Below are positions 32,800 through 62,709 of a DNA stretch of 64,000 nucleotides, one piece after another (within the stretch, counting starts at the first letter, position 1; the number at the start of each line of letters is the position of its first letter). The notes beneath the pieces were generated by a model, which was not told the origin of the DNA, ran no database searches, and saw only the letters and a list, made by a program, of their open reading frames with translations. The stretch covers positions 287,161,533 to 287,225,532 of the forward strand of contig CM041778.1 of the NCBI GenBank assembly GCA_023374045.1, written 5' to 3'. This DNA is from Limonium bicolor (Eukaryota; Streptophyta; Magnoliopsida; Caryophyllales; Plumbaginaceae). The position numbers were made by a program, and so were the translations under genes.

Positions 32800-33307
32800 T
32801 GAAATACTCCAAACCTTAGTATGTTGTTTAAACATTTAAATATGGTATATTAAGACTAAAAAGAGTCTTAGAAACATTAGTAAACAACTTAAACCATAGA
32901 AAACACAAATAAATGCCTTAAAGTCAATTAGGGCTAAAATATGTTCTAAGCTTGGGATAAGCTTGGGTAAGACCTAATGAGCTTACCAAGACCTTATTTA
33001 TATACTAATGAACATATTAAACCAATTACCAAAGAAAACCAAGCTTGAAAACAAGTTAAAACACAAAATGTGCTTTAAGGAGTCTTAAAGCACATTTTTG
33101 AAAAATTGTCTTGCAAATGAGTTTTGAATGGCTAAATGTCCATCATTACTCTTTAATTAATATGTGTACTACTTAGTATCACATTTGGAAGTCTATATCA
33201 ATGGGAAATCAAAAATTTCACATCTATGTGCCTTGTTTTAGTGAATAGTAACTAAAATAAGCTAGTTTGTAACATATGTTTGTATAAGTAATTAAATTGG
33301 CCAACAA
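32800..33307 (+). repeat. TEK 5' LTR, first 508 bp
   Basis: Matches 58825-59333 of the 3' LTR and is cut at 33307 by TR2. Its other 3.37 kb lies at 49030-52397. Confidence 0.93.
33303..33307. repeat. Target site duplication of TR2, left copy
   Basis: AACAA here and at 49025-49029. The uninterrupted site GGCCAACAAAGAC is present in the TEK 3' LTR at about 59325-59337. Confidence 0.95.
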
Positions 33308-38957: not shown

Positions 38958-38992
38958 ATCTACCCCCTTAAAAAGACTTCGTCCCGAAGTCT
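38958..38992 (-). promoter_or_regulatory. TR2 polypurine tract with upstream hairpin
   Basis: Minus strand: hairpin arms AGACTTCG/CGAAGTCT (38974-38992) with loop GGA, then TAAGGGGGTAGA (38959-38970), then the LTR. The purine tract primes second-strand synthesis. Confidence 0.85.
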
Positions 38993-41884: not shown

Positions 41885-43285
41885 TCATGCCCTATCTACT
41901 CCTTTGCCTTTATAGGCTCCAGCATCAGTAGATGTCTGGCCATCCTGACCGCCTCGTGGTACTCCAGATCCTCCAGCTAAAGTCTTCTGAGTATTCTTTG
42001 GTGGCCGGTAATTACGGCTCTCTGGGTTCATCCAACACTCGAATTCCCTATGGCCCTCTTTGTGGCAGCACCGACACTCAACTTTGCGGCCTTCGCATTC
42101 GACCCCAGGATGGTCCTTCCCACAACGCTTACAGTAAAAATGGCGCTGGGGCTGTCCGGTGCCTGATGGTAGTATTTAAGTTTAAGTTAAAGTCTGATGG
42201 TATAAAGGTTAAGGTCACAATTAAGTTAAGAGGTAGGTATTCCCACCCTTAGGAGGTGTAGATTTCAGAGGCGTAGCATCAATAGCTGGGCTGGTCAACT
42301 GAAGGACGGGCTCTTTTCCTTTCTTTCCCTGGTTACCCTGCTGCCCTTCCTTTGGAAAGAATTTCCTGTTCAAGGTTTCAGGTCAGCATTCATAAGGTAT
42401 TTAATACAGTAAACAATTTAGAGTGGGATAAGTCCTTACTTTCCCTTTTTCTGGCCTCCGCCTGGAGATGCTCCTCCACCCTCAGACTCTCCTTCAGGGT
42501 TCTTTCTCTTCTTTGCCCCTAGAGTCTCTTCCCGAGTCTGGAGCATTAGCTCCGTCCTCGAGGCAGCATCGTAACACTCCTGGAATCTCATTGGTAAGTT
42601 CTCACGAAGTTAATCGGTAATGTAATAGGTAAAGAATTTATGGCTTTCATGTTAATACCTGGATGGTAGTGTAGAGGGTAGCACCCATCGCCATCTGGAT
42701 GCGAAACAATAGTCCTCCCCGGAACTTCTCGATCTTAACGGTCTCTGAGTATTCAACACCGGGGATGAAGTCCAGTAGACCAATGAATCGAGCATAATAC
42801 TCATCCACGGTCAGGCCTCCCTGGGTCAATGTCTCAAACTCATGGCGCTTCTTCTGTTTGAGATGAGCTGGGTAGTACTTCCCCCTCAGCAACTCTACAA
42901 AGGCAGTCCAAGAAAAGTCGGGCGTAGCCAGGTGCTGGTCCTTGACCAACCTCCACCAAGTGCTGGCTGCATCCTTCAGATGGAAAGCAGCAATGGCGAC
43001 CTTCTTGTCGTCCGGTACCTTTAAAGCTTCATACGCTTTCTCATGTTCAACAATGTATCGCTCCAAAGCTACGGGGTCTGGTTTCCCAGAATATGTAGGT
43101 GGTCGGGTCTCGCTAACTGACTTCAGCCAGTTCGTTTCCCTGGGCTGTGGCGGGTGGGCTGGTGCTCCTCCTATCTGAGTACCCAGCTGTGCAAGAACGG
43201 CTGCAACCGTCTCAGCAACTCCTGGAATGCCGGGGTCACTGCCTCCACCTCTTCCAGTACCACGCCCTCTAGTTCCACCAGACAT
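41885..43285 (-). CDS. gag: Gag polyprotein of TR2, intact when three introns are removed
   Basis: Gag forms the particle that packages retrotransposon RNA. Exons on the minus strand: 43285-42659 (627 bp), 42579-42440 (140), 42365-42247 (119), 42162-41885 (278). Introns of 79, 74 and 84 bp all have GT-AG ends, and the joined frame is 387 codons without a stop. Residues 1-30 are Gly/Arg-rich; about 65-200 form the Gag core (ASTWWRLVKD, RGKYYPAHLKQKKR, LTVDEYYARF). Exon 2 starts with ECYDAA; exons 2-3 are Lys-rich. Exon 4 has two zinc knuckles, CKRCGKDHPGVEC and CRCCHKEGHREFEC. The start ATG follows CTACAG directly, so a leader intron is also possible. No nearby protease or pol. If introns were not removed, only the 212-residue exon 1 product would form. 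Confidence 0.85.
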
Positions 43286-43486
43286 CTGTAGTACAGTATG
43301 TCACATAAATACTCGGTAAATTACCGTACACAACCAATAGATAATAAGTTGCCTTAAGGCTAACCAGTCACGCAATTTGCGTTACTAGACACAATATCTT
43401 TCTAAGACGAATCGTCTCGTACTTCCCAAATGTTTCCCAATAATTTCCCAAGTCCTAAGCTCACTATCTTAACCTATTTTCTTGTC

Positions 43487-43514
43487 ATCAGAGCGGTACT
43501 CCGCTCTGATACCA
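43487..43514 (-). promoter_or_regulatory. tRNA-Met primer-binding site with overlapping hairpin (TR2)
   Basis: Minus strand TGGTATCAGAGC (43514-43503), four bases inside the LTR, is complementary to the 3' end of plant initiator tRNA-Met. Its last eight bases open a perfect 10-bp stem, ATCAGAGCGG with CCGCTCTGAT, loop AGTA (43510-43487). Confidence 0.9.
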
Positions 43515-43518
43515 CTTT

Positions 43519-46500
43519 TGTAACACCCCTCTCCACAATCGCGTAATAATCTCTCACGTAGCAAATAAATAAAACGTCTCGCAGCGGAAAATAAATAACA
43601 ATTACAAAACTCACTCGGGTGTCACCGGCCATTACTCGCCCATGCGAGCAACGAAGCCAAACTACATCCAACTTCCAACATAAACAAACGGCTAACCGCC
43701 GTGATAACGAGAAACTCCTATACATCATACTAAGTCCATAAATCATAAACATCGACAAGTGAGCATCTACCCAAACCTGAATATACACAACCTTACCATA
43801 TTACAATTCACCATCCTCATTGCTATACAACATCTCCATGTGTAGTAACAAAAGTAAATATCCAATTACCCTGTTCCTGCTCTTCGGCTTCGACAATGAC
43901 CAACAACCTGAAATGGTGTAGTATCAGCGATAGACGCTGAGTATGCCGGGCCTGGACCCTATTGGTCACTTGTCATTTTTAACCATCTTATTATTAGATC
44001 GGTTTCATGCTTTACCATTTTACAGTTATAAACAATACTGTAACATAAATGTATAATATACATAATCATCCATACAAATATTCATAGATATTCAACCATC
44101 CATCCAATCCAAACAATCATTTAATAACACAATCCAGAATTATATATCGAACGTATCGAACAACCACAATATGATGTACAATGTACAATCGTCGTAGCGT
44201 ATACCATCCTTTATTAATTTATTTTAGTTTGGCCTTCAAGGCTCCATCCATATGTACAATGTACATTCGCCGTGGCGTACAGTTTTCATATTTAATTTAC
44301 CTTAGCCTTGTAGGCTCCATCCAACCATGTTTAATTATTATTGTCAGTTGGGTGTCATGTTAGGACAGCCCGATAACCTCACCATGGACAGTAGTCCTCC
44401 CGTACACACAAAGGTGCTCATTTCGCTAGAGGTCCGGAGGCCCCTGACTCTCTTATGTCTCGTAAGACGTCCATAAAAAGGCCGTAGCCACCTGATCCAC
44501 GATCCAATTTGGGCTCGTTGGATATAACCTGGAGCGGAATCCAATTAGGAAACCCCTCAGTGATCACAAATGCACAACCAAGTAATTCGTTAACTACCGG
44601 GATTCCTCCACTCAACTCAACTCAACTCATACCATCTCTCTCTCATAATGTTTAAGATATGCTCTTAGTCTTATGGAGAATATAATTATTAATTAGCTGC
44701 CCAATGGGTCTCACGCATACCTAGAAGTAATCTAGGTTATATTCATGTTCGAGATCCATGCTCTAGAGACCGACAATGTCGTGACTCATCCCTAAGTGTT
44801 TTACTTAGGTTATCATATACTCAATATTAATATCATGGTATTATTTCAAGTAACTGTCATGTCATCACAATAACGTATATGTATGTTTATATAAGTCGAT
44901 CTATAGTCGACGTAGTGTTAGTCCTGTGGGACGCTCGTGCATAAATAAATAATGCAATAACACTTAAACACATACATGTATCCACACACATAACACACAA
45001 GTTATATCAACCAAATCGGAGCCCAAGGAGCAACCTTAGGTCAACTCGGATCAAACCCCTTTACATACCGTTCACCCTGATCGTATTACGGTGGAGTATG
45101 AATCAGCAAGATCCTATGCTCCGTGTAGTCCGCTAGCTCGTCAAGCGTCTTGTCAGAAGTATAATCTAAACGGTATTAAAACTATAAGTCAGTCTCCATG
45201 ACTAACTACATCCGGTATTTCCGAATAATAAGTAACCCCGATAGTTCACCCCTGTTTTCTACAGTTGTTTGTTACGGGCTTCTCTAAAACAGTCGGTTTT
45301 GTTACTTAAAACGCGTACGTCAAAATATTTCAACTGTTAAGTTTAACTCATTATTTCTTTTTAATCTTATCCACAATCTAGTTTAGGTACATAACCTATA
45401 GTTGCACGTATGCATGCATGATTATATTATATTATATTCTTTTTCATATACATTATCCTTGTGTATGTATATATTTACCACGTAGGTAAGTTTCATGAGT
45501 TTAATAAACTCTTTTATTTTATGTTACATTTTATCATCTTCTTTTAGATGATTATTCCCATTAGTTTTATTATGTTATACAACTTGTATTAAGATTGTTA
45601 CCCTAATATTATGTAACATTTTATGTTGTATATTCACAACTCCTAAGGTTTATTCAATAAATACCTTAGTTTATAAATCCCATTTATTTATAGTTTGTCA
45701 CATTCTTTTATGTGAGTACCCTTCCTTATATTAATTCCATCTAAACCATATGATTGTTATAACATTTATAACATTATAGACCTTAGTCTAAAATTCATTT
45801 TCCAACTCTTATTAACTCGGTATAGCCCTTGAATTTATTTAAATTCCATTTTGACCACATAACATTTTGTAATGTTATACCATACACTAATATCATACTA
45901 TGTGATATTTTTATTCCCTTTAACTTATACCTATAGCTTTTATACAAAACTATTTTATATTGCCTCTTAGGCACCATAAGAAAATCTTTTTCTTTTCCAT
46001 AAACCATAGTTTCCTTAATTTACAAAATCACCCCTTAATTTATACCATGTTATATGTGCCATTTAATATAACATTTCTAACTTATAAAAAGGGTATAACC
46101 TATGGTTATTTTTGTAAATTCAGAACAGCCCTTGTGCTATTCTATAATTGCCATTTGGCCCTACTTATAACATTTAGTTTTACCATATCATTAATACCAT
46201 ATATTATACACATACCTTAATAAATACTCTTATATAATTCTAAAAATCCCCAAATTTCACCAAAGGGTTATAAATATCCTTATTAACCCATATACTTTCG
46301 GTATTTACCATTCCACCATCTATATTCTCCAAAGTGTCATAATGACATAATAACTATATATTATACATATAGTTTATTTTAATCCCAAAAACAACCCAAT
46401 AAGTTCCTAAAAATTCCTAATAGCCCATGGGTGTTTAAAATACCATTGTACACCCTTTATTTCCGGTAATAACATATTTACCACATATGTTATGAAAATA

Positions 46501-49024
46501 TTACCATTAAGTACTTATCTTATTATAAAACCTTAAATAATTTATCTAACTTATTTATTTTGGTCAAAACCTAGCATATGGTCAAGGTTGACCTCCTTAA
46601 TATTTCCTTGACCATCAATTCCTAATAATTACGGTTTTAACCCTTAAGTTTCCAAAATTCACCATTTAAGCCCAAAACTTAATAAAATCTTATAAACTTT
46701 ATTTTAAATCGTTTTTACCTCTAATTTTCGGCCTTATTATTCTAAAGCCCCTAAATTTAATTTATTTACACTTAAGACCCCATTTCATTTCGGTAATAAT
46801 TATATATCACCTAAACTTAAATAAAAGCTTGGAAATGCATAAATAAAATGGCCTAAAATACATGGCCTTATTATTACAAACATTTGCTCACAAAATAAAT
46901 TACACATAAATGTCCCAAAAATACTTATAATTCTCGGCCTCACCACACACTTTTTATTTAATTACCAAACTTCCACATAATGTCTTAAGTTTGACAATTA
47001 TGCTTGTTTAATTAGTTATAAAATTTATTAAACCATTCCTTAATCATTTTAAGGTCAAACATGACCATAACACCTTATTCCCTCACGACAATTTATTTAG
47101 AAATAGCTTTTGAACGTATTAACTTAGCAAAGTTAATGTTTAAGTGATTTATACCTTGATTTAGCTTAGGTAAAGCCTTGTTTGTTTCGCCACCTTAAGG
47201 AGAGTTTCTCCAAAGCTTGATTTACTTGTCTTCATGTAGAAAACAAGACATGATTAAACTCCACACATGAGCTAACCATGAGAAGTAATTTAAGTCATGA
47301 AAATCATTGATTTTTACCTTAGATCTTCAAGCTTGTTATAGATCTGTCTCGGCCCTAATTTTCCAGTAAAGAAAGAGTATCAAAACACTCTCAAGAACAA
47401 GGTATAAAACCGTTGGTAATTAGCTTGGAAGATAGCTAAGTTTTACCTTGTTTAAGATGCCAAAAATGGTGTTTTTGGCTTGGATCTAGCTACTCCTTGT
47501 AGATCTTGGTATACCAACTGAATCTACATGAAAAGGAGAAGATAATAAGGCTAGGGAACCAAGGTTTACAACCGAAATTTTCAAGGAAGAAGAGATATGT
47601 GCTTAGAGCACATTTTTACCTTAAATGGTCAAGACTTGAACTTTCCTCCTTAGATCTTGTTATGGCCGAAAAAATTTCTTCCTTTAACCTCCAAAACACT
47701 CTACATAGATGTATAGAAAAGGTTGGAGTGTAGATCAATGGAAAAAGGAAAGAAAGATGAATAAAATGGGCATTTTTATGCCTTAAGAGCTTACCTAGAG
47801 CTTGAGCTCTCTCCAATGGAGCTTGGTATACTTACCTTTGGTCAAGAGGAGCCAAATGAGAGGGTTTGGCTAAAGATCTCACGGTTGAATGGAGCTAATG
47901 AGAGAAATGACCTAATTTTGGCTTAAAACACATTTTTTGCATTTTTTATGTCTTTAATGATTTGGTGACTCACCATTGACTGATTGTTGTTGATAATTGG
48001 AGGCTCAACCGGTGGATACAAGAAGGGGGCAGCCGTCCATGATAGGAGAAGGTGGGTGCATGATTGAAACAAAATTGATTCAAAAATGAAGCTTAATGTT
48101 ACTTAAATCAACTAGTGAAAGATGACTCATCTCCTCTTGTCTTGTTCTTGCTAGGAGCACCGTACAATGAGGAGTAAATGGAGGCTCCAAATCGGCTGGC
48201 TCACATGGGTAAGGTAAGTGGTAGACAACCTTTTTTGTTTTATAAGGTAAAGTATGTTTTTTCCTTATTTTATGCAAAAGCAAGGGAATATATTTATTTG
48301 TCACATGGGACTTGTCTCTTGGTCTGTTAAGAGACTCTCTTCACCAATTTTGAGAGGTCCAATTCGTGGTCAATGGTCAACATTGACCAACTTAGTCAAT
48401 GTTGACCCAAACGGGCCCCACTTTAGGGTTTTATTAATATTTTAATATTAAATTTGTAAAAAATTGTAAATTCTTGGAATTAAATTCCTAATATGATATA
48501 ATATGATATTTTATCATATTTAAAGGTATTTATAACCTTTTAGCCCATTTAAAATCAATTTAGAAGGCAATTACACAAAAATGTGCTTTAAGGAGTTTTA
48601 GTGCACATTTTGTGTCTCAAGGAGTTTATGAGCTTGGTTTCCTTTGACAACGGTTTTGTTGTGTTCCTTACATGATATATGATCATGGTATCCAATTTTA
48701 TATCATTTAGAGGTCATTAGACCTTTAAGGTTTCTTAGAGCACATTTTTGCCCTTTTTGACCTTAAAGCATGAAAGTGCTTGTTCTTTGTGTTGGAGTGT
48801 TGCCCAACAATTGTAATATGTTTAGTAATGTGTTAATATGCTTAGGACAAATTTTTAGGTCCTAAGTAGTTCATTTGTGTATTTGTTTACCCTTAACAGT
48901 CAAAGGGTGCAACATCTTGTTTTGTGTTGACCACTGTTGTTCTCAGTTGACTTTTAAGGCATATTAGGCCTTAATTAATGTAATTAAATATTTAATCCTT
49001 GTTTAAAAAGTTTGGGGTATTTCA
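43519..49024 (-). repeat. TR2 5' LTR (5506 bp)
   Basis: The promoter-side LTR of TR2; it ends at 49024 followed by AACAA. Close match to 33308-38957 apart from small indels. No coding region is supported. Confidence 0.92.
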
Positions 49025-49029
49025 AACAA

Positions 49030-52000
49030 AGACTAAAATACCCTTAGTAACATAAAGGTGGCCGGTTTTTATGGTAATGAGTCACCACTCATGTTAGTTT
49101 ATTAAGTAACAAATGATGACTAATGGTTACTATTTACTTTAACATATAAATATCTTTTAAAAGCAAAACCAATCTTCATTCTCTCATTTCTCTTCATTTC
49201 ATACGTCTTCAACCTCTCTTCTATCTTCTTCTTGCTCTCCATTCACGGTTTGCAATAGTACACACTCAATACCATCTTTGACCACTTGTATCCCCTAGCT
49301 CATTTTTCCAAATCAAATTCTAAGACCACCATTCTCTTCCTCTCATCAAGCTCTTCAATTCTATCCTTTCAAAATTTCAAGAGCTCCATTTTGGTGCCAA
49401 GAAGAATCTCCATGGAAGGAGCTTGAGCTCATCTTTTCACATATTATTATTCTCTTTTGCTTCAAGGTAAGGAAACTCAAAGAAAAATGATGTTTCCCTC
49501 ATGTTTTTGTGTTGTCCGAAAAATCACCCTTAATGGTGTCCTTATGTTACTTTGTTCTAGCTTCATTTCAACCTTTCATGGACTAGGTGGAGTCCTCTCT
49601 TGATATATATCAAACTCTCTTCAAGTTCTAAGGTAAAACAACTATCTTAATGTTTTTAAAACAATGTATAATCTAGGGTTTACAATGAGATGAAGCATAA
49701 CGCTTGTATACTCATTTTATCATTTGTATAATGTTTAGAAGTTGACAAGCAACTAAAAGCCTTGCCGATTTAGTCAAGGAAACAAGAAAGAAGTTGTGAG
49801 GAAAAGAGGTAAATGTGCTAACCTAATGTGGTTTAAAGTCTTAGGAGAAATGAGCTTATATTGCTTGTTAAAATGATCTAAGGAGCCAATGGTATATGAC
49901 TTAGTAAAATGTTCTCAAAGGCTTATTAAAAGGCATATGTGTTGTTGAGTGTATTTGCAAGTCAAAGGCAAATATATTGTGGAAATTCAGTGTTTATGAT
50001 TTATGCATCTTAAGGGCCTAAGAGCCATGTTATTTAAGGGCCTAAGAGCCAAGCAATTTAAATTATGCACTATTGTGATGTAGTGCTAAATGAGTGAAGT
50101 TTGTGTATAAGAATGTGTTTGATGAATTTTAGTGTCCTTGATTGTTTAATGGTGAAAACAATGCGTTTTGGCGTAGCAATGTTCTAGGAGAGTTCATGTC
50201 AAAATTTAGGTAATAAACAAGAAGTTCTAAGGGTTTAAAATGAGTTTGGTAAGTTAGGAAATGTTTAGAATGGTTTAGTGTTCAACTAGTGAAAGGAACA
50301 TGCATTATGGTGTTTTAAGGTGTAAAAAGGGACTTAAGCATAATTCTAGAGGATTTAGAATGCAAAAGAATGTTTTGGGACACTTCAAGATCATGGTGAG
50401 ATTGTATTTAGGACTTGTGCATTGTTGGTGAATAAGGATGAAGTGATTTGTTGCATGGGGAGCTATAAACTTGTAAAGATGTTCAAGGAGTGTTTATGAA
50501 GAAAAGATGCTTGGGAGATGATGTTGTAGTGGTGAGAAAACATTATTGGCATAGTGGTTATCATAGGTATGAAACACCACCTAGAAACCTAAGGAGAAAA
50601 CATTATAAGTGTTAGGAATTTTGGTAAGAAATGAGTAAGTGTATAAGGAGAAAGAAGATGAGTTTTATGGATGTTGTATGAGAGAATAAGTGTGCCAAAT
50701 GGTGTTGAAAACATTAGAAGGCTTGAGGAAAAGTTTGGAGGGGATTTGACAATGTTGGGCATGTTCTGGTGGCGTCCGACCCAGGGGTCCGATCCAAATT
50801 TGGGTCGGACGGCCTCTGTTAGACGCCGGTAAGTGGTTCTGGAACGGTCCGACCCAGAGGACTTGGGTGGACAGGGGTCGGACGGGTGAGTTTAAAAGAC
50901 GGTAAAATTTCTGGAATGGTCCGACCCAGTTGGTTGGGTCGACATGGGTCAGACAAGTAGAATATTTTTCAAAACCCGAAAGTTACTGGAAGGGTCCGAC
51001 CCAGTTGGTTGGGTCGGACGGTGGGTCGGACTGACCAAAACTTAACAAAAAAAAACATAAAAGTATGGCTTAAGTAATAAACCCAAGGGGGTATAATGTA
51101 GGTAATCAAGTATAAGTTTGGGCATTAAAACATGTCATATAATCATGTTAAACATTTAGTAAATTTGAAGTTAAGTAAGATTAACCGACATTCTTAAACA
51201 TGTATAGGAGTGACCTACGGTGGAAATCAATCGAAGCAAGGACCAAGGTATGGTTTTCTTGCAGTCTGTTGCCTACCGGTTTACACCGGCTTGTGTGTTG
51301 TTTGTTTTTCTGTGTGTTTATGACGTTATAAGACTTAATCATGTAATGAGTTTACAGTTGTTCATATTAATGTGATGTTATGATGTGACTCATTTCCCTT
51401 GTGTGTGTCTAACATGACTTACCACTTGTTGTGAATTTTTGTCAAGTTCCACTGTTGAACTTCTAACAAGTGCTAACTGGGAAGTGAGGAATCCGGTTGT
51501 CCGGTCATGCATGTAAGTTTAAGAGTAGATATCTGAATCAGATTCGACTCTTATGTTGTTAAGATTGTTCTCCTTCATTTGGCGTTCGATCTCCCGCTAG
51601 CTTCCTCCAAAGCTTACCTATTCTGACTTATGATCGGTTTAGTGGGAACATGTGTTTGTGTGGTGTGTTCGGGTCACAATATCCGAACCATCTGTGACTT
51701 AAGTTACTCGTTCGAATAACAGAACGGTAATGAGTGTGTGTAACAAGCTTAACATGAGAGTGAACCATTCTCTAGGCTTCTTATGTTGTTTAACCTTCTT
51801 GGTTTGTTATTGTGGAAAGAGTATCCACTGTGTATGTGATGTTGTGCTATGCAATAATGTTGCTATGCCATATGTTATGTTATGTTTAAAATGAATGCCA
51901 TGTCATCATGACAATTAGTTGCGCGTATCCCGGTAGCCGATGGGCTGCGCGTTAACCATACCAGCCAAGGGTTGCTGACCCCCTCGGGGGCTCCATATTT

Positions 52001-52397
52001 TTACTGCAGGATGAGGATCGAGGAAGCAGAGTGGCTGTAGATTCTAGGCTGCAGATGTACTTTTGGTTATTTTGGATGTTGAGCCCGGGATGCGCCTGTG
52101 CTCCCGTGGCGTTATATTTTGGTACTGTTTGTGTTACAGTTGACAGTGGAGATCATGAGTACAGTATACAGTGACAGTTTGTATTAAATACTCGGTATGT
52201 TGGTTATGTATATATGTGTGGATGTTAGTACCTAATGCTCGGGAGTCTGATCATCAGACCGGTACACTTGTATTTATTCTGCCTTGTTAACCACGTGGGT
52301 GGTTGACGGCGTTGTAGCACCGAATCGTTTAGTTATTGTTTAGTTATTTTTCCGCTGCGATTTCATTTAATGTTAAGTGCGTAGTAGGGGTGTTACA
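49030..52397 (+). repeat. TEK 5' LTR, remaining 3.37 kb
   Basis: Matches 59334-62709. A TATA-like ACATATAAATATC (about 49142-49154) in front of a CT-rich stretch is the likely core promoter, putting most of this LTR in the transcribed part. It holds an array of GTCCGACCC...GGGTCGGAC palindromes (50768-51035), a G/C hairpin (CCCCCTCGGGGG near 51990) and a two-tier hairpin (52228-52265). It ends TTCCGCTGCGA...GGGGTGTTACA as TR2 does. No gene is seen. Confidence 0.9.
50768..51035. repeat. GTCCGACCC / GGGTCGGAC palindrome array in the TEK LTR
   Basis: Four main palindromes of about 26-27 bp with arms GTCCGACCC(A) and (T)GGGTCGGAC separated by about 45-75 bp of other sequence. The 3' LTR copies (61078-61345) are better preserved; for example 61225-61250 is perfect at both ends. 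Single-base decay in the 5' LTR breaks some arms. Confidence 0.85.
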
Positions 52398-52402
52398 AAA
52401 AG

Positions 52403-52430
52403 TGGTATCAGAGCGAAGTATCGCTCTGAT
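52403..52430 (+). promoter_or_regulatory. tRNA-Met primer-binding site with overlapping hairpin (TEK)
   Basis: TGGTATCAGAGC (52403-52414), five bases after the LTR. Bases 52407-52430 form a perfect 10-bp stem, ATCAGAGCGA with TCGCTCTGAT, loop AGTA. TR2 has the same structure with the last pair changed from A-T to G-C. Confidence 0.92.
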
Positions 52431-52614: not shown

Positions 52615-54076
52615 ATGTCAGGTAGACCACGAGGTCGAGGCCGCGGGCGCGGCATTGGTGATACTGGGAACCAGGGAGAGAACCCTACGGCACAAGTCAT
52701 GGCCGATGCTGTAGCGGCCGCCGTAGCCCAGATGGTCCACAACTTGTAGCTGCAATTCAGCAGGGGCAACAGCCCGAAGTTCAACCACCACCGCCACCGC
52801 CACGAGAGACCAACTGGGTCAAGGCATTGGCAGACTTGAGACCCCCGTCGTTTCATGGGGAGACCGACCCACGTAAGCTGGAGGCGTACATCTCCGAGTT
52901 GGAGACCGCCTACGAGACCTTGGATGTGCCTGTTAGCCAAGGTCCGTCTTGCCGCTTACTACCTGAAGGGATCGGCACAAAGTTGGTGGAAGCTTGTGAG
53001 AGAGGACCGGATGGCGGATCCTCAGTTTGGTTGGAGGGAGTACACGGCTCTGCTGCGAGCCAAGTATTACCCTGTGCATGTTCAAGAGGCTAAGCGCCTG
53101 GAGCTGGATAGTCTGAGGCAGGGGATAAGATGTCGGTCGATGAGTACTACACTGCATTCACCGGTCTTATCCACCTGTTACCGGACCTGGGATACTCGAA
53201 CCGGGTGCTGGTAAACCGTTTCTACAACGGTCTCAGCCACCGTCTTCGCTATGGGATGGGGCCAGCTGAGTATGCTACCTTGCAGGTAATTAGAATCAGT
53301 GTGATGTGAATAAGTGTAATCCATAAGTGAGTATTAATGTGAGTTTGTGAGTATGTGTTTGGGCATGACTGACATCCTAAATTCAGGAGTGCTATCATGC
53401 TGCTAAGGTGAGATTACCGTCCGTCTGAGGGACGAGGAGAACGCGCACAAGCGCAAGGCCACGAGGAGGGCCAGAGTCCGCAGGGGTACGGGGGAGGAAA
53501 GAAGAAGAAGAAGCCTTATCCCCAGCCCCAGAAGAGTCAGCACCAGGGTGACAAGGGCCAAGCCCAACCACCACAGCTGAGGAGCCACTGAAGCTCACAT
53601 ATGCATACGCGCGAAACCCTACGCTCTTACCCGCCTAAGGGTAATTATTTAATCATGTGTGTCAAGTTGAAGTGTATGTTGTTAAGTTATGAAGTAAGTA
53701 TTGATTGTGTACTGTGATAGCAGCTAGCACGGGTTCTGGACCGGAGCGCCACTACTACTGTAAGTGGTGTAACGGAGACCACCCCGGCAAGGACTGCAAA
53801 GGAAATGACGTGCAGTGTCGTTACTGCGAGAAGTGGGGTCACCGTGACTACGAGTGTTACCGGAACCCCAACAGCAGAGTCAACAAGCCCAAGGGGCAGT
53901 GGAAGGGTAAGGCCACAGCGACCATCGATGGCCCGAAGACGGCTAACCAGCCACCCACAGATCAGAGGAGCACTGATTCCCAGAAGGGGAAGGGGTCGGG
54001 ACCTAGCAAGGCCACCCTGCATGTGGTGGACCGGTCTGAGGCGCCAGGGCCCTCTACTAGACCAGGTACCGCCTAA
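52615..54076 (+). pseudogene. gag: TEK gag, spliced layout, frameshifted
   Basis: Related to the TR2 Gag. Exon 1 is about 52615-53285 (SGRPRGRGRGRG start; core motifs SAQSWWKLVRED and RAKYYPVHVQEAKR; TVRLATLQ-like end), with frameshifts near 52745, 52935 and 53125. An intron at 53286-53386 (GTAATT...ATTCAG) precedes ECYHAAK, the same border as ECYDAA in TR2. The next exon, 53387-53640, covers what are exons 2 and 3 of TR2 without an intron. A second intron, 53641-53720, leads to the last exon 53721-54076 with knuckles CKWCNGDHPGKDC and CRYCEKWGHRDYEC; its phase matches TR2. The ATG again follows an AG (TTCAG). Confidence 0.82.
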
Positions 54077-54190
54077 ACTGTTGAGTGAAATAAGTGATTG
54101 CATACCGCATTTCATGCATGTGTGTGTTAGTGAGTCCAAATGTACTACCATGTGAGTAAAGAATTAAAGTACAATGTGAAAGTCACCTAA

Positions 54191-54951
54191 TTAGATAATT
54201 CTAAACTTAAAGGAGCCTTCAATATTTGTTATGAAATCCCACCAACACCAAACCCTGAAGAAACCACCATCAACATCACCGACTTTCCAATGGAGCAATG
54301 TCAGGTCATCCAATCAGGTATGATACTCTTAAATGGATACCTGACACCGGAAGCCCAAATCCATATCATCAGACGATGCAATGAACTTGGAGCAAACCTG
54401 GAGGTTTCTACACACCCGAATACCCGAGCGGATCAAGAATGAAATTGAAGATGATGTGCATGGGTAAGGACTGGAATCCTTACACCAAGACATATCAAGA
54501 AGTGCGAGCTGAAGACGGAGCAATTGTACCAAGTGTACCTGAGGAGTTCCTTGCGGTCGTTAACCACGCCGTGGGAATTGCTCGACAAGTTGAAGCGGAT
54601 TCAATTCCAAGTGTTAAAGCAGATTTGTGTATTGTGAACTTCTACCAGAAAGGTGGACGGTTGGGTTTACACCAAGATAAGGACGAGTCACCCGAGTCTC
54701 TAAGTAAGGGAGTACCCGTGGTGTCTTGGTCCATTGGTGATACCGCAGTGTTTATATATGGCGAGCAGAAGCGTGCTGATCTCGCAAAGAAGTTAGTACT
54801 AAAATCAGGAGATGTGTTAATCATGGGTGGGCAGTCGAGGATGCTATATCATGGCATCAGGAAGATCAAACTGAATACCGCACCGTCGGCAGTGATCAAT
54901 GCCACACACATGAAACCCGGACGTTTGAATTTGACCTTCAGACAGTTTTAA
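54191..54951 (+). pseudogene. AlkB-type 2-oxoglutarate/Fe(II) dioxygenase (ALKBH1-like) inside TEK, one frameshift
   Basis: AlkB-family enzymes remove methyl groups from nucleic-acid bases using iron and 2-oxoglutarate. The frame is open from 54191 to about 54397, shifts once, and runs on to the stop at 54949-54951 (170 residues from ATG 54439). The C-terminal part has the whole active site, numbered from that ATG: NFY (67-69), the iron ligands H78 and D80 in LGLHQDKDES, H138 in LYHGI, and R162/R168 in RLNLTFRQF (the RxNxTxR motif). The N-terminal part has SGMILLNGYL and ELGA...GGFYTPEY. The phrases are those of plant ALKBH1-like (1B-1D type) proteins. It lies on the element strand, after gag and before protease, with no clear start codon in the first part, so it was probably a spliced exon. 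This copy is nearly intact. Confidence 0.88.
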
Positions 54952-55132
54952 AGCCTTGTATAATTATGTAATGTGTTAAGCCAGTGTATGTTAAGGATGT
55001 TATATATGTGTTAGTTATGCCAACAGTGTAAACCAACGTATGATGTAAGAAGAGTGTGTTAATGAATAAAGTGGAGTTGTTGAAGTATGTCAACCGTGTT
55101 ACCCAATACTTATTAGTTTGCCAATGAATTAG

Positions 55133-55660
55133 GTTGTGCTCTCGGAACGGGAGGTATACTGAGTGTCTGCAATGAGGCAGAAGCCGGCAAGAGCGGCACA
55201 ATCCTCACCGGTACCTTTCCAGTCAATGGCGTGGACGCTTCGATCTTGTTCGACTCCGGAGCCTCACATACATTTATTTCGCTATCCTTTGCGAAGAGGC
55301 TGGGGTTAGACGGTGATGAGATGCCAGACTTCCTAGTCACTCCCGTCGAAAGAGCGGATCAGGTGTACCCGCTACCACCGAGATGTTGTTGTACGAATCA
55401 GAGGTGAAGAGTTTCCGATCGACTTGATAGAGTTCGACGGACTTGGTTTTGATGTGATTGTCGGGATGAACTGGTTGGAGCGGTACAAGGGCAGAATCCT
55501 GTGTGCCGAGCATCGCCTGCTTCTTCGGAGTCCGTCTGGGGTTACTATATCTACCGCCAGAGGCCCAGGGAGCCTTCGACTCAGATCATCACCGCCATGG
55601 CTATGTATCGCGAACTACGACGAGGGAATGATGTATACCTCTGCTATGTCCAGGACATAG
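55133..55660 (+). pseudogene. pro: TEK protease (aspartic), frameshifted
   Basis: Retroviral-type aspartic protease that would cut Gag-Pol. From an AG at 55131-55132 the frame reads CALGTGGIL... then FPVNGVDASILFDSGASHTFIS with the catalytic D-S-G-A, and DFLVTPVERADQV. A frameshift near 55383 precedes GLGFDVIVGMNWLERYKGRI, the second conserved block. A stretch of about 180 bp without coding signs (54952-55132) separates it from the AlkB stop. Confidence 0.85.
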
Positions 55661-57035
55661 AGAGAGATCCAGAGTTTAGCCCAGATGTGCCGGTAGTGTC
55701 GGAGTTTCCTGATGTATTTCCTAAGGAACTGCCGGGCATGCCGCCAGCACGGGAAGTGAGTTTGAGATTGATTTGGTTCCGGGCACCGGACCAATTGCGA
55801 AGGCGCCCTATCGTATGGCTCCACAGAGATGACAGAGCTCAAGGAGCAGCTGAGAGACCTACTCGACAAGGGATTTATCCGCCCTAGCGTTTCACCATGG
55901 GGAGCGCCGGTCCTCTTCGTGAAGAAGAAGGACGGTAGTCTCCGCCTGTGTATTGACTATCGAGAGCTGAATGCAGTTACGGTGAAGAACCGTTACTCCT
56001 TACCACGCATCGACGACTTATTTGATCAGTTGAGGGGAGCATCAGTATTCTCCAAGATAGATCTACGATCCAGATACCATTAGATTGCCATCTGTGACAG
56101 TGACATTGAGAAGACAGCATTCAGAACCAGGTATGGACACTATGAGTTTACGGTTATGCCGTTTGGTTTATCCAATGCACCAGCAAAGTTCATGGACTTA
56201 ATGAACCGCTTGTTCCAAGATCAGTTGGACAAGTCAGTGATAGTCTTCATCGACGATATTCTTGTGTACTCGAAATCGAGAGGTGAGCATGAAAGCCACC
56301 TGAGAAATGTGTTACAAACATTGAGAAAGAATCAGTTATATGCTAAGTTTTCAAAGTGTGAGTTTTGGTTGAACCAAGTATCCTTTCTTGGTCATGTGAT
56401 TTCTGAGGCCGGGATCGCTGTTGATCCGGCAAAGATTGATGCAGTGCGCACCTGGCCTAGGCCGAAGACAGTTACCGATATCAGGAGCTTCCTCGGTCTG
56501 GCAGGTTATTATAGGAGGTTTGTGAAGGACTTCTCCAGTGTCTCGAAGCCGATGACTTCCTTGATGAAGAAGGATGCACCATTCGAGTGGACAGTCGACT
56601 GTGAGAGTTCTTTCCAGAGTCTCAAGGATGCTCTGACATGCACCAGTCCTGACTATACCAGACGGTCCAGATGGTTTTGAGGTCTATTGCGACGCATCAG
56701 GCAGAGGTATGGTTGTGTGTTGATGCAACACGGGAAGGTCGTAGCTTACGCCTCCCGACAGCTGAAGAAGCATGAAGAGAACTACCCTACCCACGATTTA
56801 GAACTGGGTGCCATTGTCTTCGCATTGAAGATATGGCGACATTATTTGTATGGGGTAAGTGTGACAATTTATTCTGACCACAAAAGTTAAAATACTTGTT
56901 CACTCAGAAGGAGTTGAACATGAGGCAAAGAAGGTGGGTTGAGTTTCTAAACGACTACGACATTAATTACAGTACAAAGAGGGTAAGGCAAATGTGGTAG
57001 CTGACGCATTGAGTCGCCGAGCACACTCTCTCATT
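55660..57035 (+). pseudogene. pol: TEK reverse transcriptase and RNase H, frameshifted
   Basis: Copies element RNA into DNA. Visible blocks: [14 protein letters not shown] linker; [20 protein letters not shown] and [19 protein letters not shown]; a stop after RSRYH (TAG, 56081-56083); [21 protein letters not shown]; the catalytic FIDDILVYS (about 56249-56275); [11 protein letters not shown]; and the RNase H domain with [45 protein letters not shown] and YSDHKS (stop at 56887-56889). Further frameshifts are near 55830, 56650 and 56710. The core residues are still present. Confidence 0.92.
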
Positions 57036-58489
57036 CGCTAGTCTCTCATACTGGCTTGGTTGAAGAGGTGCGGAGTGCTCAGATGACGGATCAGTATATG
57101 TTGGAGATCAGGCAGAAGCTTATTGATGGCACATTCGAGGGTCAGAAGTACGACTTCCGACTCCACGATGATGACCTGATTAGGCTCAATGGCCGACTGT
57201 GTTCCGAGGAGTAGCGCTGAGCTGAAGGAGCGCATACTGAGTGAATCCCACTGTTCTACGACTTCGATTCACCCCGGAGCTTCAAAGATGTATAAGGGTA
57301 TGAAACGTTTTTTTGGTGGACTGGCATGAAAAAGGATGTTACTGATTATGATTGAGGTGTCTCACTTGTCAGAAGGTCAAGTTTGAGCACCGACGGCCTG
57401 GTGGTATGGTACAGCCAATGCCAGTGCCTGAGTGGAAGTTCCATGACATTTCTATGGACTTCGTAGTAGGGCTTCCGCCTACAAGGGGAGGTCTGAATAT
57501 GATTTGGGTTGTTGTTGACCGACTGACCAAGGTGGCTCGATTCATACCGATGAAGGACACCTGGAAAGTGGCAAAACTAGCAGAGCTCTTGACAGAGAGA
57601 TTGTAAGACATCATGGGGTACCGAAAACAATTGTGTCTGACAGGGATACCAGATTCCTCTCAAGGTATTGGAAATCCACACGGGAAGCGCTTGGTACCGA
57701 GCTGAAGCTAAGTACAGCGTTCCACCCACAGACAGATGGTCAGAGTGAGCGCACCATCCAGACACTTAAGGATATGTTACGTGCATGTGCACTTGACTTT
57801 CAGACCAGCTGGATTGATAGGTTACATCTGATCGAGTTTAGTTACAACAACAGTTACCATGCATCGATCAAGATGTCTCCCTTCCAGGCTTGTACGGTAG
57901 ACCATGCCGCACGCCATTATGCTGGGATGAGTCGAGTGAGACGGTCATTATAGGACCAGAGTATCTGGAACAAGTTCAGGCAGAAGTTCGCCAGATCCGG
58001 GCTAACATGAAGGCAGCTCAGGATAGACAGAAGTCGTACGCAGATGTGCGCAAACGCGACCTGGAGTTCGCCGTGGGCGATCAGGTATTTCTTAGAGTAT
58101 CCCCCATGAAGGGAGTATTTCGTTTTGGCCAGAAAGGCAAGTTGAGCCCAAAATATGTGGGGCCTTATGTTGTGATGGAGCGGATCGGCCCGGTAGCTTA
58201 CAGACTTGTTCTACCCGCCGAGCTGGGCAACATGATGTATTTCATGTGTCCCAGTTGAAGAAATATATGTCTCATCCGTCTCATGTGCTTCAACCTGAAA
58301 GGCTAACCTTAGAGCCGACCATGCGATCAGTGGAGACTCCGGTACGGATTCTGGATACTAAGACTCGAGACACTCCATAAGTCAGTGAGACTGGTGAAGG
58401 TTCTTTGGTCTAACCAGGACGTCGAGGAGGCCACTTGGGAGCTGGAAGATAAGATGAAGGCGAAGTACCCGTCATTGTTTACTTCTTAG
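57036..58489 (+). pseudogene. pol: TEK integrase with chromodomain, frameshifted
   Basis: Joins the DNA copy to the host chromosome. In order: an HHCC zinc finger (SHCS...IHPG, then CLTCQK); the core with first Asp in WKFHDISMDFVVGLPP, second in SDRDTRF, and Glu in TDGQSERTIQTL; the GPY/F module KLSPKYVGPYVVMERIGPVAYRL; then YMSHPSHVL and a chromodomain-like tail VRLVKVLWSNQDVEEATWELEDKMKAKYPSLF ending at TAG 58487-58489. The chromodomain tail targets chromovirus insertion to modified chromatin. Breaks occur at a TGA near 57353, near 57605, near 57910 and near 58240, plus TAA at 58378. Confidence 0.92.
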
Positions 58490-58824
58490 TGTTTATGTGT
58501 ATAGGGTACGGGGCGTACCCCTTTTTAAGGGGGGTAGAGCCGTTTCGGTTATGTGTGTACGACGTGTATTTAAATACATCGTCTATGTTATGTTGTATGG
58601 ACCTTGTGTCCGATGTTATGTTGTGTGGACCTTGTGTCCGATGTTATGTAAGTATGACCGTTGTATTTGAATGACGTTGTTGTATGGACCTTGTGTCCAA
58701 TGTTATGTAAGTGTGTTGTTAATGTTGTTATGGAAATATTGTTTATATGTATTCCCGTGTTCTAACATTTAGGATATGTGGAAGTGTGAACTTTGAGGAC
58801 AAAGTTCTTTTAAGGGGGGTAGAT
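58490..58824 (+). promoter_or_regulatory. TEK 3' interior: two hairpin-purine modules and the polypurine tract
   Basis: After the pol stop: hairpin GGGTACG/CGTACCC with loop GGG (58504-58520), purine tract AAGGGGGGTAGAG (58527-58539); a GTTGTATGGACCTTGTGTCC phrase in about three imperfect copies (58590-58710); hairpin GAACTTTG/CAAAGTTC with loop AGGA (58788-58807); polypurine tract AAGGGGGGTAGA (58812-58823), two bases from the 3' LTR. No gene. Confidence 0.85.
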
Positions 58825-61800
58825 TGAAATACCCCAAACCTTAGTAAGTTGTTTAAACATTTAAATATGGTATATTAAGACTAAAAAGAGTCTTAGAATC
58901 ATTAGTAAACAATTTAAACCATAGAAAACACAAATAAATGCCTTAAAGTCAATTAGGGCTAAAATGTGTTCTAAGCTTGGGATAAGCTTGGGTAAGACCT
59001 AATGAGCTTACCAAGACCTTATTTATATACTAATGAACATATTAAACCAATTACCAAAGAAAACCAAGCTTGAAAACAAGTTAAAACACAAAATGTGCTT
59101 TAAGGAGTCTTAAAGCACATTTTTGAAAAATTGTCTTGTAAATGAGTTTTGAATGGCTAAATGTCCATCATTACTCTTTAATTAATATGTGTACTACTTA
59201 GTATCACATTTGGAAGTCTATATCAATGGGAAATAAAAAATTTCACATCTATGTGCCTTGTTTTAGTGAATAGTAACTAAAATAAGCTAGTTTGTAACAT
59301 ATGTTTGTATAAGTAATTAAATTGGCCAACAAAGACTAAAATACCCTTAGTAACATAAAGGGGGCCGGTTTTTATGGTAATGAGTCACCACTCATGTTAG
59401 TTTATTATGTAACAAATGATGACTAATGGTTACTATTTACTTTAACATATAAATATCTTTTAAAAGCAAAACCAATCTTCATTCTCTCATTTCTCTTCAT
59501 TTCACATGTCTTCAACCTCTCTTCTATCTTCTTCTTGCTCTCCATTCACGGTTTGCAATAGTACACACACAATACCATCTTTGACCACTTGTATCTCCTA
59601 GCTCATTTTGCCAAATCAAATTCTAAGACCACCATTCTCTTCCTCTCATCAAGCACTTCAATTCTATCCTTTCAAAATTTCAAGAGCTCCATTTTGGTGC
59701 CAAGAAGAATCTCCATGGAAGGAGCTTGAGCTCATCTTTTCACATATTATTGTTCTTCTTTGCTTCAAGGTAAGGAAACTCAAAGAAAAATGATGTTTCC
59801 CTCATGTTTTTGTGTTGTCCGAAAAATCACCCTTAATGGTGTCCTTATGTTGCTTTGTTCTAGCTTCATTTTAACCTTTCATGGACTAGGTGGAGTCCTC
59901 TCTTGATATATATTCAAACTCTCTTCAAGTTCTAAGGTAAAACAACTATCTTAATGTTTTTAAAACAATGTATAATCTAGGGTTTACAATGAGATGAAGC
60001 ATAAAGCTTGTATACTCATTTTATCATTTGTATAATGTTTAGAAGTTGACAAGCAACTAAAAGCCTTGCCGATTTAGTCAAGGAAACAAGAAAGAAGTTG
60101 TGAGGAAAAGAGGTAAATGTGCTAACCTAATGTGGTTTAAAGTCTTAGGAGAAATGAGCTTATATTGCTTGTTAAAATTATCTAAGGAGCCAATGGTGAA
60201 TGACTTAGTAAAATGTTCTCAAAGGCTTATTAAAAGGCATATGTGTTGTTGAGTGTATTTGCAGGTCAAAGGCAAATATATTGTGGAAATTCAATGTTTA
60301 TGATTTATGCATCTTAAGGGCCTAAGAGCCATGTTATTTAAGGGCCTAAGTGCCAAGCAATTTAAATTATGCACTATATTGTGATGTAGTGCTAAATGAG
60401 TGAAGTTTGTGTATAAGAATGTGTGATGGATTTTAGTGTCCTTGATTGATTAATGGTGAAAAGAATGCGTTTTGGCGTAGCAATGTTCTAGGAGAGTTCA
60501 TGTCAAAATTTAGGTAATAAACAAGAAGTTCTAAGGGTTTAAAATGAGTTTGGTAACTTAGGAAATGTTTAGAATGGTTAAGTGTTCAACTTGTGAAAGG
60601 AACATGCATTATGGTGTTTTAAGGTGTAAAAAGGGACTTAAGCATTATTCTAGAGGATTTAGAATGCAAAAGAATGTTTTGGGACACTTCAAGATCATGG
60701 TGAGATTGTATTTAGGACTTGTGCATTGTTGGTGAATAAGGATGAAGTGATTTGTTACATCGGGAGCTATAAACTTGTAAAGATGTTCAAGGAGTGTTTA
60801 GGAAGAAAAGATGCTTGGGATATGATGTTGTAGTGGTGAGAAAACATTATTGGCATAGCGGTTATCATAGGTATGAAACACCACCTAGAAACCTAAGGAG
60901 AAAACATTATAAGTGTTAGGAATTTTGGTAAGAAATGAGTAAGTGTATAAGGAGAAAGAAGATGAGTTTTATGGATGTTGTATGAGAGAATAAGTGTGCC
61001 AAATGGTGTTGAAAAACATTAGAAGGCTTGATGAAAAGTTTGGAGGGGATTTGACAATGTAGGGCATGTTCTAGTGGCGTCCGACCCAGGGGTCCGATCC
61101 AAGTTTGGGTCGGACGGCCTCTGTTAGACGCCAGTAAGTGGTTCTGGAACGATCCGACCCAGAGGACTTAGGTCGGACAGGGGTCGGACGGGTGAGTTTA
61201 AAAGACGGTAAAATTTCTGGAATGGTCCGACCCAGTTGGTTGGGTCGGACATGGGTCGGACAAGTAGAATATTTTTCAAAACCCGAAAGTTACTGGAAGG
61301 GTCCGACCCAGTTGGTTGGGTCGGACGGTGGGTCAGACTGACCAAAACTTAGTAACAAAAAAACATAAAAGTATGGCTTAAGTAATAAACCCAAGGGGGT
61401 ATAATGTAGGTAATTAAGGATAAGTTTGGGCATTAAAACATGTCATTCAATCATGGTTAAACATTTAGTAAATTTGAAGTTAAGTAAGTAATTAACCGAC
61501 ATTCTTAAACATGTATAGGAGTGACCTACGGTGGAAATCAATCGAAGCAAGGACCAAGGTATGGTTTTCTTGCAGTCTGTTGCCTACCGGTTTACACCGG
61601 CTTGTGTGTTGTTTGTTTTTCTGTGTGTTTATGACGTTATAAGACGTAATCATGTAATGAGTGTACATTTGTTCATATTAATGTGATGTTATGATGTGAC
61701 TCATTTCCCTTGTGTGTGTCTAACATGACTTACCACTTGTTGTGAATTGTTTGTCAAGTTCCACGGTTGAACTTCTAACAAGTGCTAACTGGGAAGTGAG

Positions 61801-62709
61801 GAATCCGATTGTCCGGTCATGCATGTAAGTTTAAGAGTAGATATCTGAATCAGATTCGACTCTTATGTTGTTAAGATTGTTCTCCTTCATTTGGCGTTCG
61901 ATCTCCCGCTAGCTTCCTCCAAAGCTTACCTATTCTGACTTATGATCGGTTTAGTGGTAACATGTGTTTGTGTGGTGTGTTCGGGTCACAATATCCAAAC
62001 CATCTGTGACTTAAGTTACTCGTTCGAATAACAGAACGGTAATGAGTGTGTGTAACAAGCTTAACATGAGAGTGAACCATTCTCTAGGCTTCTTATGTTG
62101 TTTAACCTTCTTGGTTTATTATTGTGGAAAGTGTGTCCACTGTGTATGTGATGTTGTGCTATGCAATAATGTTGCTATGTCATATGTTATGTTATGTTTA
62201 AAATGAATGCCATGTCATCATGACAATTAGTTGCGCGTATCCCGGTAGCCGATGGGCTGCGCGTTAACCATACCAGCCAAGGGTTGCTGACCCCCTCGGG
62301 GGCTCCATATTTTTACTGCAGGATGAGGATCGAGGAAGCAGAGTGGCTGTAGATTCTAGGCTGCAGATGTACTTTTGGTTATTTTGGATGATGAGCCCGG
62401 GATGCGCATGTGCTCCCGTGGCGTTATATTTTGGTACTGTTTGTGTTACAGTTGACAATGGAGATCATGAGTACAGTATACAGTGACAGTTTGTATTAAA
62501 TACTCGGTATGTTGGTTATGTATATATGTGTGGATGTTAGTACCTAATGCTCGGGAGTCTGATCATCAGACCGGTACACTTGTATTTATTCTGCCTTGTT
62601 AACCACGTGGGTGGTTGACGGCGTTGTAGCACCGAATCGTTTAGTTATTGTTGAGTTATTTTTCCGCTGCGATTTCATTTAATGTTAAGTGCGTAGTAGG
62701 GGTGTTACA
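58825..62709 (+). repeat. TEK 3' LTR (3885 bp)
   Basis: Complete LTR, TGAAATACCCCAAAC to GGGGTGTTACA, closely matching the two 5' pieces and followed by TCTTG. It carries the GTCCGACCC palindrome array at 61078-61345. Small open frames (59608-59793, 61124-61345) have no domain. Confidence 0.94.

Follow-up and report, generated by a model that had tools for sequence, protein, structure and literature searches.

Orchids provide the precedent for AlkB-type demethylase genes carried by plant retrotransposons. Ogre/Tat elements of Phalaenopsis, which are long terminal repeat (LTR) retrotransposons, encode an ALKBH5-type domain in a separate open reading frame (ORF2) with in vitro demethylase activity on N6-methyladenosine (m6A), and among 121 plant genomes screened the domain was detected in two Phalaenopsis species alone (PMC9289625). 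Here we analyze a stretch of 64,000 nucleotides of the Limonium bicolor genome (contig CM041778.1; hereafter, the window), in which an earlier note made from the letters of the DNA had reported an AlkB-type gene inside a Ty3/gypsy retrotransposon. Given the orchid Ogre/Tat elements (PMC9289625), the window element is not the first retrotransposon found to carry AlkB. Both systems are LTR retrotransposons with many copies and a conserved AlkB-family domain that keeps its cofactor residues. The orchid element, however, belongs to the non-chromovirus Tat lineage, is 25 kb long, and has its gag-pol in one ORF and its m6A RNA eraser of the ALKBH5 type in a separate ORF2 of 565 aa, whereas the window element has a chromodomain match, an ALKBH1-type domain, and an exon between gag and protease (PR) that is spliced to gag. 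These features place it outside the orchid AlkB Gypsy family.

Other known systems resemble the window element in single respects. Plant LTR elements generally have no introns, Ogre and EVADE being exceptions (accessible part of PMC12786077), and the Ogre intron separates gag-prot from the reverse transcriptase (RT) (excerpt of PMC6317226). As in Ogre and in the spliced gag RNAs of EVADE and BARE, splicing would set the products of the window element; unlike these elements, as far as the two excerpts describe them, it is a chromovirus and its alternative exon encodes an enzyme. Plant RNA viruses with an AlkB of their own, as mentioned in PMC9289625, are also mobile or viral elements so equipped; they differ in being RNA viruses with another replication cycle, and the likeness is one of description only. 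According to the accessible part of PMC10469495, rice ALKBH1 acts on N6-methyladenine (6mA) in single-stranded or unpaired DNA and is required for 6mA removal from R-loops. No report of a chromovirus AlkB was found in the open literature, as covered by the listed titles and abstract beginnings, most subscription papers and preprints lying outside this scope.

We are highly confident that the window holds a real, conserved and spliced AlkB exon that belongs to a chromovirus family. The evidence on its enzyme type, copies, selection and splicing is described below.

Results

AlkB domain of the window element

On the forward strand, AlkB is encoded by open frames at 54191-54442 and 54385-54951, which overlap. 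The second and longer frame, of 188 codons, scores E 4.3e-43 and 148 bits against the profile PF13532 (curated cut-off 31) and retains the HxD, distal H and RxNxTxR residues, alignable to rice OsALKBH1 and E. coli AlkB; match and motifs together assign it to the AlkB family. The iron and 2-oxoglutarate residues are thus kept, as the earlier note had stated. Its span for the gene, 54191 to 54951, holds in part: AlkB is located there and its frame is interrupted once, near 54,400, but the exon starts at 54213 and the preceding bases are intronic.

The nearest solved sequence is OsALKBH1 (5xeg, E 8e-59), followed by E. coli AlkB and mammalian ALKBH1, and ALKBH5 is absent among the 21 solved sequences matched by the element AlkB. 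An AlphaFold2 model of the window domain (mean predicted local distance difference test score, pLDDT, 91) has OsALKBH1 as its best match, with a TM-score of 0.92 by query length. OsALKBH1 (5xeg/5xoi) is therefore the closest solved protein in both sequence and fold, with the same cofactor residues, and, its nearest named and solved relatives being ALKBH1, the domain belongs to the plant ALKBH1 subfamily. A quick tree, drawn without ALKBH5 or other AlkB subfamilies, contained 66 rows (13 element rows, six database proteins and 47 others, mostly plant-named). The element rows and the six database proteins (P0001-P0004, P0011, P0101) group together on a long stem, with a Shimodaira-Hasegawa-like approximate likelihood ratio test (SH-aLRT) value of 100, apart from the other 47. 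The element proteins are thus a set of their own among the plant ALKBH1-type proteins, in agreement with the ALKBH1-like nature proposed before.

Because the six database proteins are intermixed with the element subfamilies, the family is probably present in other plants too. The other database matches listed have at most 55% identity, save for close kin of these six. An FDIC-type N-terminal motif of the element proteins also occurs in plant proteins, e.g., P0006 and P0090. Two proteins, P0068 and P0097, have extra residues after GMHQ/GLHQ, which by appearance would be a retained intron; these residues are absent from the element proteins, as would fit a capture as complementary DNA (cDNA). 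No gag-AlkB fusion was seen by Pfam column and names in the 120 matches listed of 553 (database proteins of ~301-957 aa), no PF13532 annotation by the same column among the 120 RT matches listed of 7,961, and no AlkB relatives in viral contigs by six peptide patterns. The grass AlkB cluster P0104 (Paspalum notatum, 205 aa) is large, with 42 members, and might likewise be carried by an element.

Copies in the host genome

The searched host assembly comprises 2,686 contigs and 2.92 Gb. A PF13532 search gave 38,325 first-look candidates, a number that is not a copy count; 150 of these were scored, and all 150 match across the whole profile. To avoid selection by AlkB itself, we drew 20 copies from the 150 best matches to the RT of the window. 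In each of the 20, matches to zinc knuckle, AlkB, protease and RT follow one another in this order, and gag is matched in 19. AlkB is thus carried between gag and protease in 20 of 20 copies, the placement that had been noted for the window. These copies are close relatives of the window element and no random sample of chromoviruses, so the share of AlkB-less relatives is not readable from them.

Other queries led to AlkB copies that are 60-72% identical to that of the window within the domain. In the diverged copies L001, L008 and L011-L014, AlkB is surrounded by gag, zinc knuckle, protease and RT matches. A query with P0016 gave 257 matches in the host genome, of which 14 places were examined (L011-L014, L035-L044); zinc knuckle, AlkB and protease occur together in nine of the ten shorter stretches (L035-L044), L036 having no zinc-knuckle match. 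By our own grouping, the copies form five diverged subfamilies, A (that of the window), B, C, C2 and C3, with a common order in which AlkB lies between the gag zinc knuckle and the protease. Tandem AlkB copies in steps of ~10.1 kb, as expected of LTR-internal-LTR arrays, were observed at C1:497439466-497470353 and C2:386603602-386613698. The host's own ALKBH1 gene was not found in these searches.

Selection on the AlkB exon

AlkB is carried in many copies under purifying selection. We calculated the ratio of nonsynonymous to synonymous divergence (dN/dS) for 21 full-length intact rows hand-picked from 45; L002, L035, L039 and L041, in which the domain is open but the 5' ends deviate, were excluded. 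The ratio is 0.163 in subfamily A (28 pairs), 0.152 in C (28 pairs), 0.165 in B (1 pair) and 0.153 in C3 (1 pair). Between A and B it is 0.116, with dS already 1.86, and in the other between-group comparisons dS is saturated, save for two of the eight C-C2 pairs.

Since this first set was chosen as intact, dN/dS was redone on the RT-selected copies, broken ones included (20 copies plus the window; DNA alignments with gapped codons dropped). AlkB has 0.159, integrase 0.149 (20 copies), protease 0.198 and the zinc knuckle 0.222; the two RT stretches have 0.060 and 0.049, the latter being the stretch used for selection. By a cruder estimate from local protein matches, AlkB stands at 0.257 and the other frames range over 0.08-0.35. 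The estimate from gap-free codons is preferred because local protein matches include misframed stretches.

Frameshift gaps are lowest in AlkB among the six stretches (4.7 per 1000 vs 5.6-22.3), the frame reference being an intact copy for AlkB and the window for the others. In the RT-selected copies, the introns flanking AlkB have about twice its divergence per site (0.154 and 0.130 vs 0.076) and about ten times its gap columns (4.2 and 4.9 vs 0.45 per 100). Of the 20 RT-selected copies examined, 19 are fully covered, and 15 of these keep all nine cofactor residues, as do 20 of 22 other copies.

AlkB as a spliced exon

A donor GT (54066) in codon phase 1 closes the last gag exon. Two acceptors are in phase with this donor: one directly precedes the AlkB exon, which starts before the motif G-x-F/Y-x-I-C, and the second precedes the protease. 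A frame that is read through the donor without splicing terminates within four codons. The splice dinucleotides are almost invariant in the 27 rows of subfamily A (Table 1), and in ten representatives of the five subfamilies the donor GT occurs in nine (L043 is without it) and each acceptor in all ten, sites and phases having been assigned by eye. Gag intron 1, also by eye, is missing from L012, L014 and L042, and gag intron 2 is missing from L012 and present in L014. An additional intron-like stretch was seen by eye within the protease exon of L011, L043 and L044.

We searched the host genome for the predicted 28-base gag|AlkB junction in its subfamily A form, allowing at most two mismatches, and obtained 13 matches vs none for the reversed control. 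Twelve matches are exact gag-AlkB joins, in frame at the junction. The thirteenth, L047, has no splice join on reading and was excluded from the count. Exact joins in the genome are expected if spliced RNA is reverse-transcribed. They stand on 8 sequence backgrounds, any two of which are at most 94.2% alike, so the spliced form probably arose several times, and the remaining introns are still present in these copies, where measurable. The conserved GT-AG sites and the spliced forms identify an intron-bearing LTR element at gag|AlkB and are strong evidence that this splice is used, whatever its frequency.

In both copies of subfamily B, the first Met of the exon is residue 77, after the GGFY at the start of the catalytic domain. 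With no Met ahead of GGFY, AlkB of this subfamily requires an upstream start. AATAAA follows the AlkB stop in five of the ten representatives (by eye); this putative signal may end a short gag-AlkB RNA.

Element architecture and other features of the window

The AlkB-bearing element spans 32800-62709 and is a Ty3/gypsy chromovirus: between its LTRs it has the order gag-PR-RT-integrase (INT) followed by a C-terminal chromodomain, the integrase and chromodomain matches of the window being under Pfam cut-offs. AlkB lies inside the LTRs, as originally described; the LTRs have TG..CA termini, the 5' copy is split by a nested element, and the target duplication TCTTG flanks the element on both sides. 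An empty insertion site is readable at 40514-40518, in a relative of the flank. The LTR pair differs by a Kimura two-parameter (K2P) distance of 0.018 over 3,874 sites, which gives an age of 0.69 million years at 1.3e-8 substitutions per site and year, a rate that we assume. Also as described before, gag and pol are much broken: the pieces that flank AlkB on its strand, from gag through protease, RT and integrase to the chromodomain, lie in many interrupted frames. The numerous single-base frame breaks at 52615-58486 are present despite the young LTRs; part of them could be assembly errors.

The nested element has LTRs of ~5.5 kb and matches gag and zinc-knuckle pieces only; comparison with the window's own pieces gave no AlkB or pol match. 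GT-AG-like gag introns are visible in it by eye. It may be a gag-only partner mobilised by AlkB-bearing relatives. A remnant of the same gag-only type, with gag and zinc-knuckle matches, is located at 709-1717 on the reverse strand, and a tandem array with a period of ~95 bases at 23168-26022.

Table 1. Features of the AlkB-bearing element (counts for splice sites are rows of subfamily A, given per base of the dinucleotide)
Feature	Position	Strand	Remarks
5' LTR, first part	32800..33307	+	starts TGAAATAC; 98.6% identity to 58825-59332
Nested gag-only LTR element within 5' LTR	33308..49024	-	duplication AACAA; foreign to the AlkB element
5' LTR, second part	49025..52397	+	ends ..GTGTTACA; 97.8% identity to 59328-62709
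Initial 5 bases of 5' LTR second part	49025..	+	duplication of the nested element
Primer binding site	52403..52414	+	TGGTATCAGAGC, from sequence; presumably tRNA-Met type
gag exon 1	52615..53285	+	start by eye; PF03732 at 52840-53211; several frame breaks
gag intron 1, GT..AG	53286..53386	+	donor 25/26, 26/26; acceptor 26/26, 26/26
gag exon 2	53387..53640	+	
gag intron 2	53641..53723	+	boundaries by eye
gag exon 3 and zinc knuckle	53724..54065	+	zf-CCHC_3 E 0.012, under Pfam cut-off; phase 1 donor at end
Intron 3a, gag to AlkB	54066..54212	+	donor GT 27/27, 27/27; acceptor A 27/27, G 26/27 (AG 54211-54212); cleanly absent from 12 genomic copies
AlkB exon including stop codon, ALKBH1-type 2-oxoglutarate-Fe(II) dioxygenase	54213..54951	+	single frame break near 54,400
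AATAAA 3' of AlkB stop	55065..55070	+	candidate poly(A) signal, from sequence
Protease exon start	55133..55404	+	acceptor AG 55131-55132, phase 1, A 27/27, G 26/27; RVP_2 E 3.7e-13
Reverse transcriptase, two frames	55772..56677	+	RVT_1
Integrase pieces	57352..57950	+	rve E 0.007 at 57519-57950, under Pfam cut-off
Integrase stretch	57352..57603	+	without Pfam match, yet recurrent in other copies
Chromodomain region, two frames	58258..58486	+	Chromo E 8e-4 at 58382-58486, under Pfam cut-off; 58258-58377 without match
Polypurine tract region	58810..58824	+	from sequence
3' LTR	58825..62709	+	LTR pair comparison

Discussion

We propose that the window element belongs to a chromovirus family that is old yet remains under constraint. 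An ALKBH1-type coding sequence would have been captured between its gag and protease, presumably in a single event from cDNA, and would be kept as an alternative exon served by one gag donor and two same-phase acceptors. Unspliced RNA would yield Gag, with translation ending shortly past the donor, splicing to the AlkB exon would yield Gag-AlkB, and splicing past AlkB to the protease would yield Gag-Pol. We consider the Gag-AlkB fusion itself quite probable, and it most likely comes from a minority RNA. The Gag part would probably bring the enzyme into the particle, near the element RNA and the nascent cDNA, and the zinc knuckle would keep it bound to that RNA and to cDNA in single-stranded or hybrid form. 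At this site, the dioxygenase would oxidatively strip base methyl groups, our best guess for the substrate being adenine marks or alkylation damage. The substrates of rice ALKBH1 (unpaired DNA and R-loops in the accessible part of PMC10469495) would resemble states of reverse transcription. The benefit could be the removal of marks that hinder reverse transcription or flag the element for silencing, and it is plausible that removal of marks from the RNA or DNA of the element counters host control.

Taken as a whole, from the constrained chromovirus family with its alternative exon to the particle-borne Gag-AlkB that removes methyl groups, this proposal has our moderate confidence. The mechanism of a particle-borne demethylase ranges, with the extent of the claim, from a tentative idea to a reasonably probable one. 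In its fullest form, this would be the first retroelement with an eraser in its own particles as a Gag fusion, in which alternative splicing gives Gag, Gag-AlkB and Gag-Pol and the ALKBH1-type enzyme frees packaged RNA, RNA:DNA hybrid or single-stranded cDNA of adenine methylation before integration; we offer this form tentatively and judge it short of probable.

Several observations weigh against this proposal. The full 253-codon AlkB frame occurs in just four of the 20 RT-selected copies; a broken AlkB in the window and decay in most copies are expected of insertions once they have landed. In-frame stops per 1000 codons are more frequent in AlkB (1.9) than in the zinc knuckle (0.4) and protease (0.0), the values for the two RT stretches being 1.7 and 0.0 and that for integrase 2.4. 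Over the first 30 codons of the AlkB exon, changes favor third positions less strongly than in the remainder (A, 66/130 vs 602/1000; C, 142/275 vs 1102/1772). The 12 copies with exact joins are few relative to the 38,325 first-look candidates, which may mean that this splicing, or the reverse transcription of its product, is rare. Gag-Pol by splicing is predicted from the conserved sites and their phase. Finally, a Met precedes the catalytic domain at exon residue 27 or 37 in subfamily A, 11 in C, and 37 in C2 and C3, which allows a free enzyme in these subfamilies.

A short RNA could give rise to a free AlkB enzyme, through an internal start or through cleavage, and this enzyme could act in the cytoplasm on cellular or element RNA, as has been proposed for the orchid element. 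The available Met residues, the AATAAA past the AlkB stop in half of the representatives, and the orchid precedent with its separate ORF are consistent with this explanation. However, subfamily B has its first Met past GGFY in both copies, in the early exon codons, too, third positions are the most frequent site of change (about half of the changes), and 12 copies have an exact in-frame join to gag; we regard a free enzyme as unlikely. Alternatively, AlkB could be kept for a non-catalytic role, such as nucleic-acid binding or hindrance of Polycomb at chromatin. Rice ALKBH1 reportedly impairs the binding of Polycomb repressive complex 2 (PRC2), and total 6mA reportedly changes little when this protein is lost (accessible part of PMC10469495). 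The retention of the iron and 2-oxoglutarate residues in most copies of five subfamilies argues against a non-catalytic role, which we find improbable.

The apparent introns could be mere decay or errors of sequencing or assembly, considering the many single-base breaks in an element whose LTRs differ by just 1.8%; this very improbable explanation is contradicted by splice dinucleotides that are near-invariant in 26-27 rows and by the precise absence of introns from other copies. Passive uptake by chance of a host gene that was then copied along, for which the earlier note would have taken a single AlkB copy or a dN/dS near 1 as signs, agrees with the broken window copy and with known gene transduction by LTR elements (excerpt of PMC7264820), but it is contradicted, and together with a pseudogene ruled out with hardly any doubt, by dN/dS of ~0.16, the same position in 20 of 20 copies, and saturated dS between several subfamilies.

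A large plant retrotransposon family with a conserved demethylase-type gene, apparently spliced to the coat protein, suggests that these elements have a tool of their own against methyl marks. This would be the second retrotransposon capture of an AlkB eraser, differing from the orchid case in lineage, AlkB subfamily and layout, and with it the removal of methyl marks would no longer be a curiosity but a strategy that recurs among plant retroelements. The family also presents a chromovirus that seemingly controls its products by spliceosomal introns and an alternative exon. With many natural copies, some of them intact, the family offers a system for asking whether plants mark retroelement RNA or cDNA by adenine methylation and whether the elements counter it.
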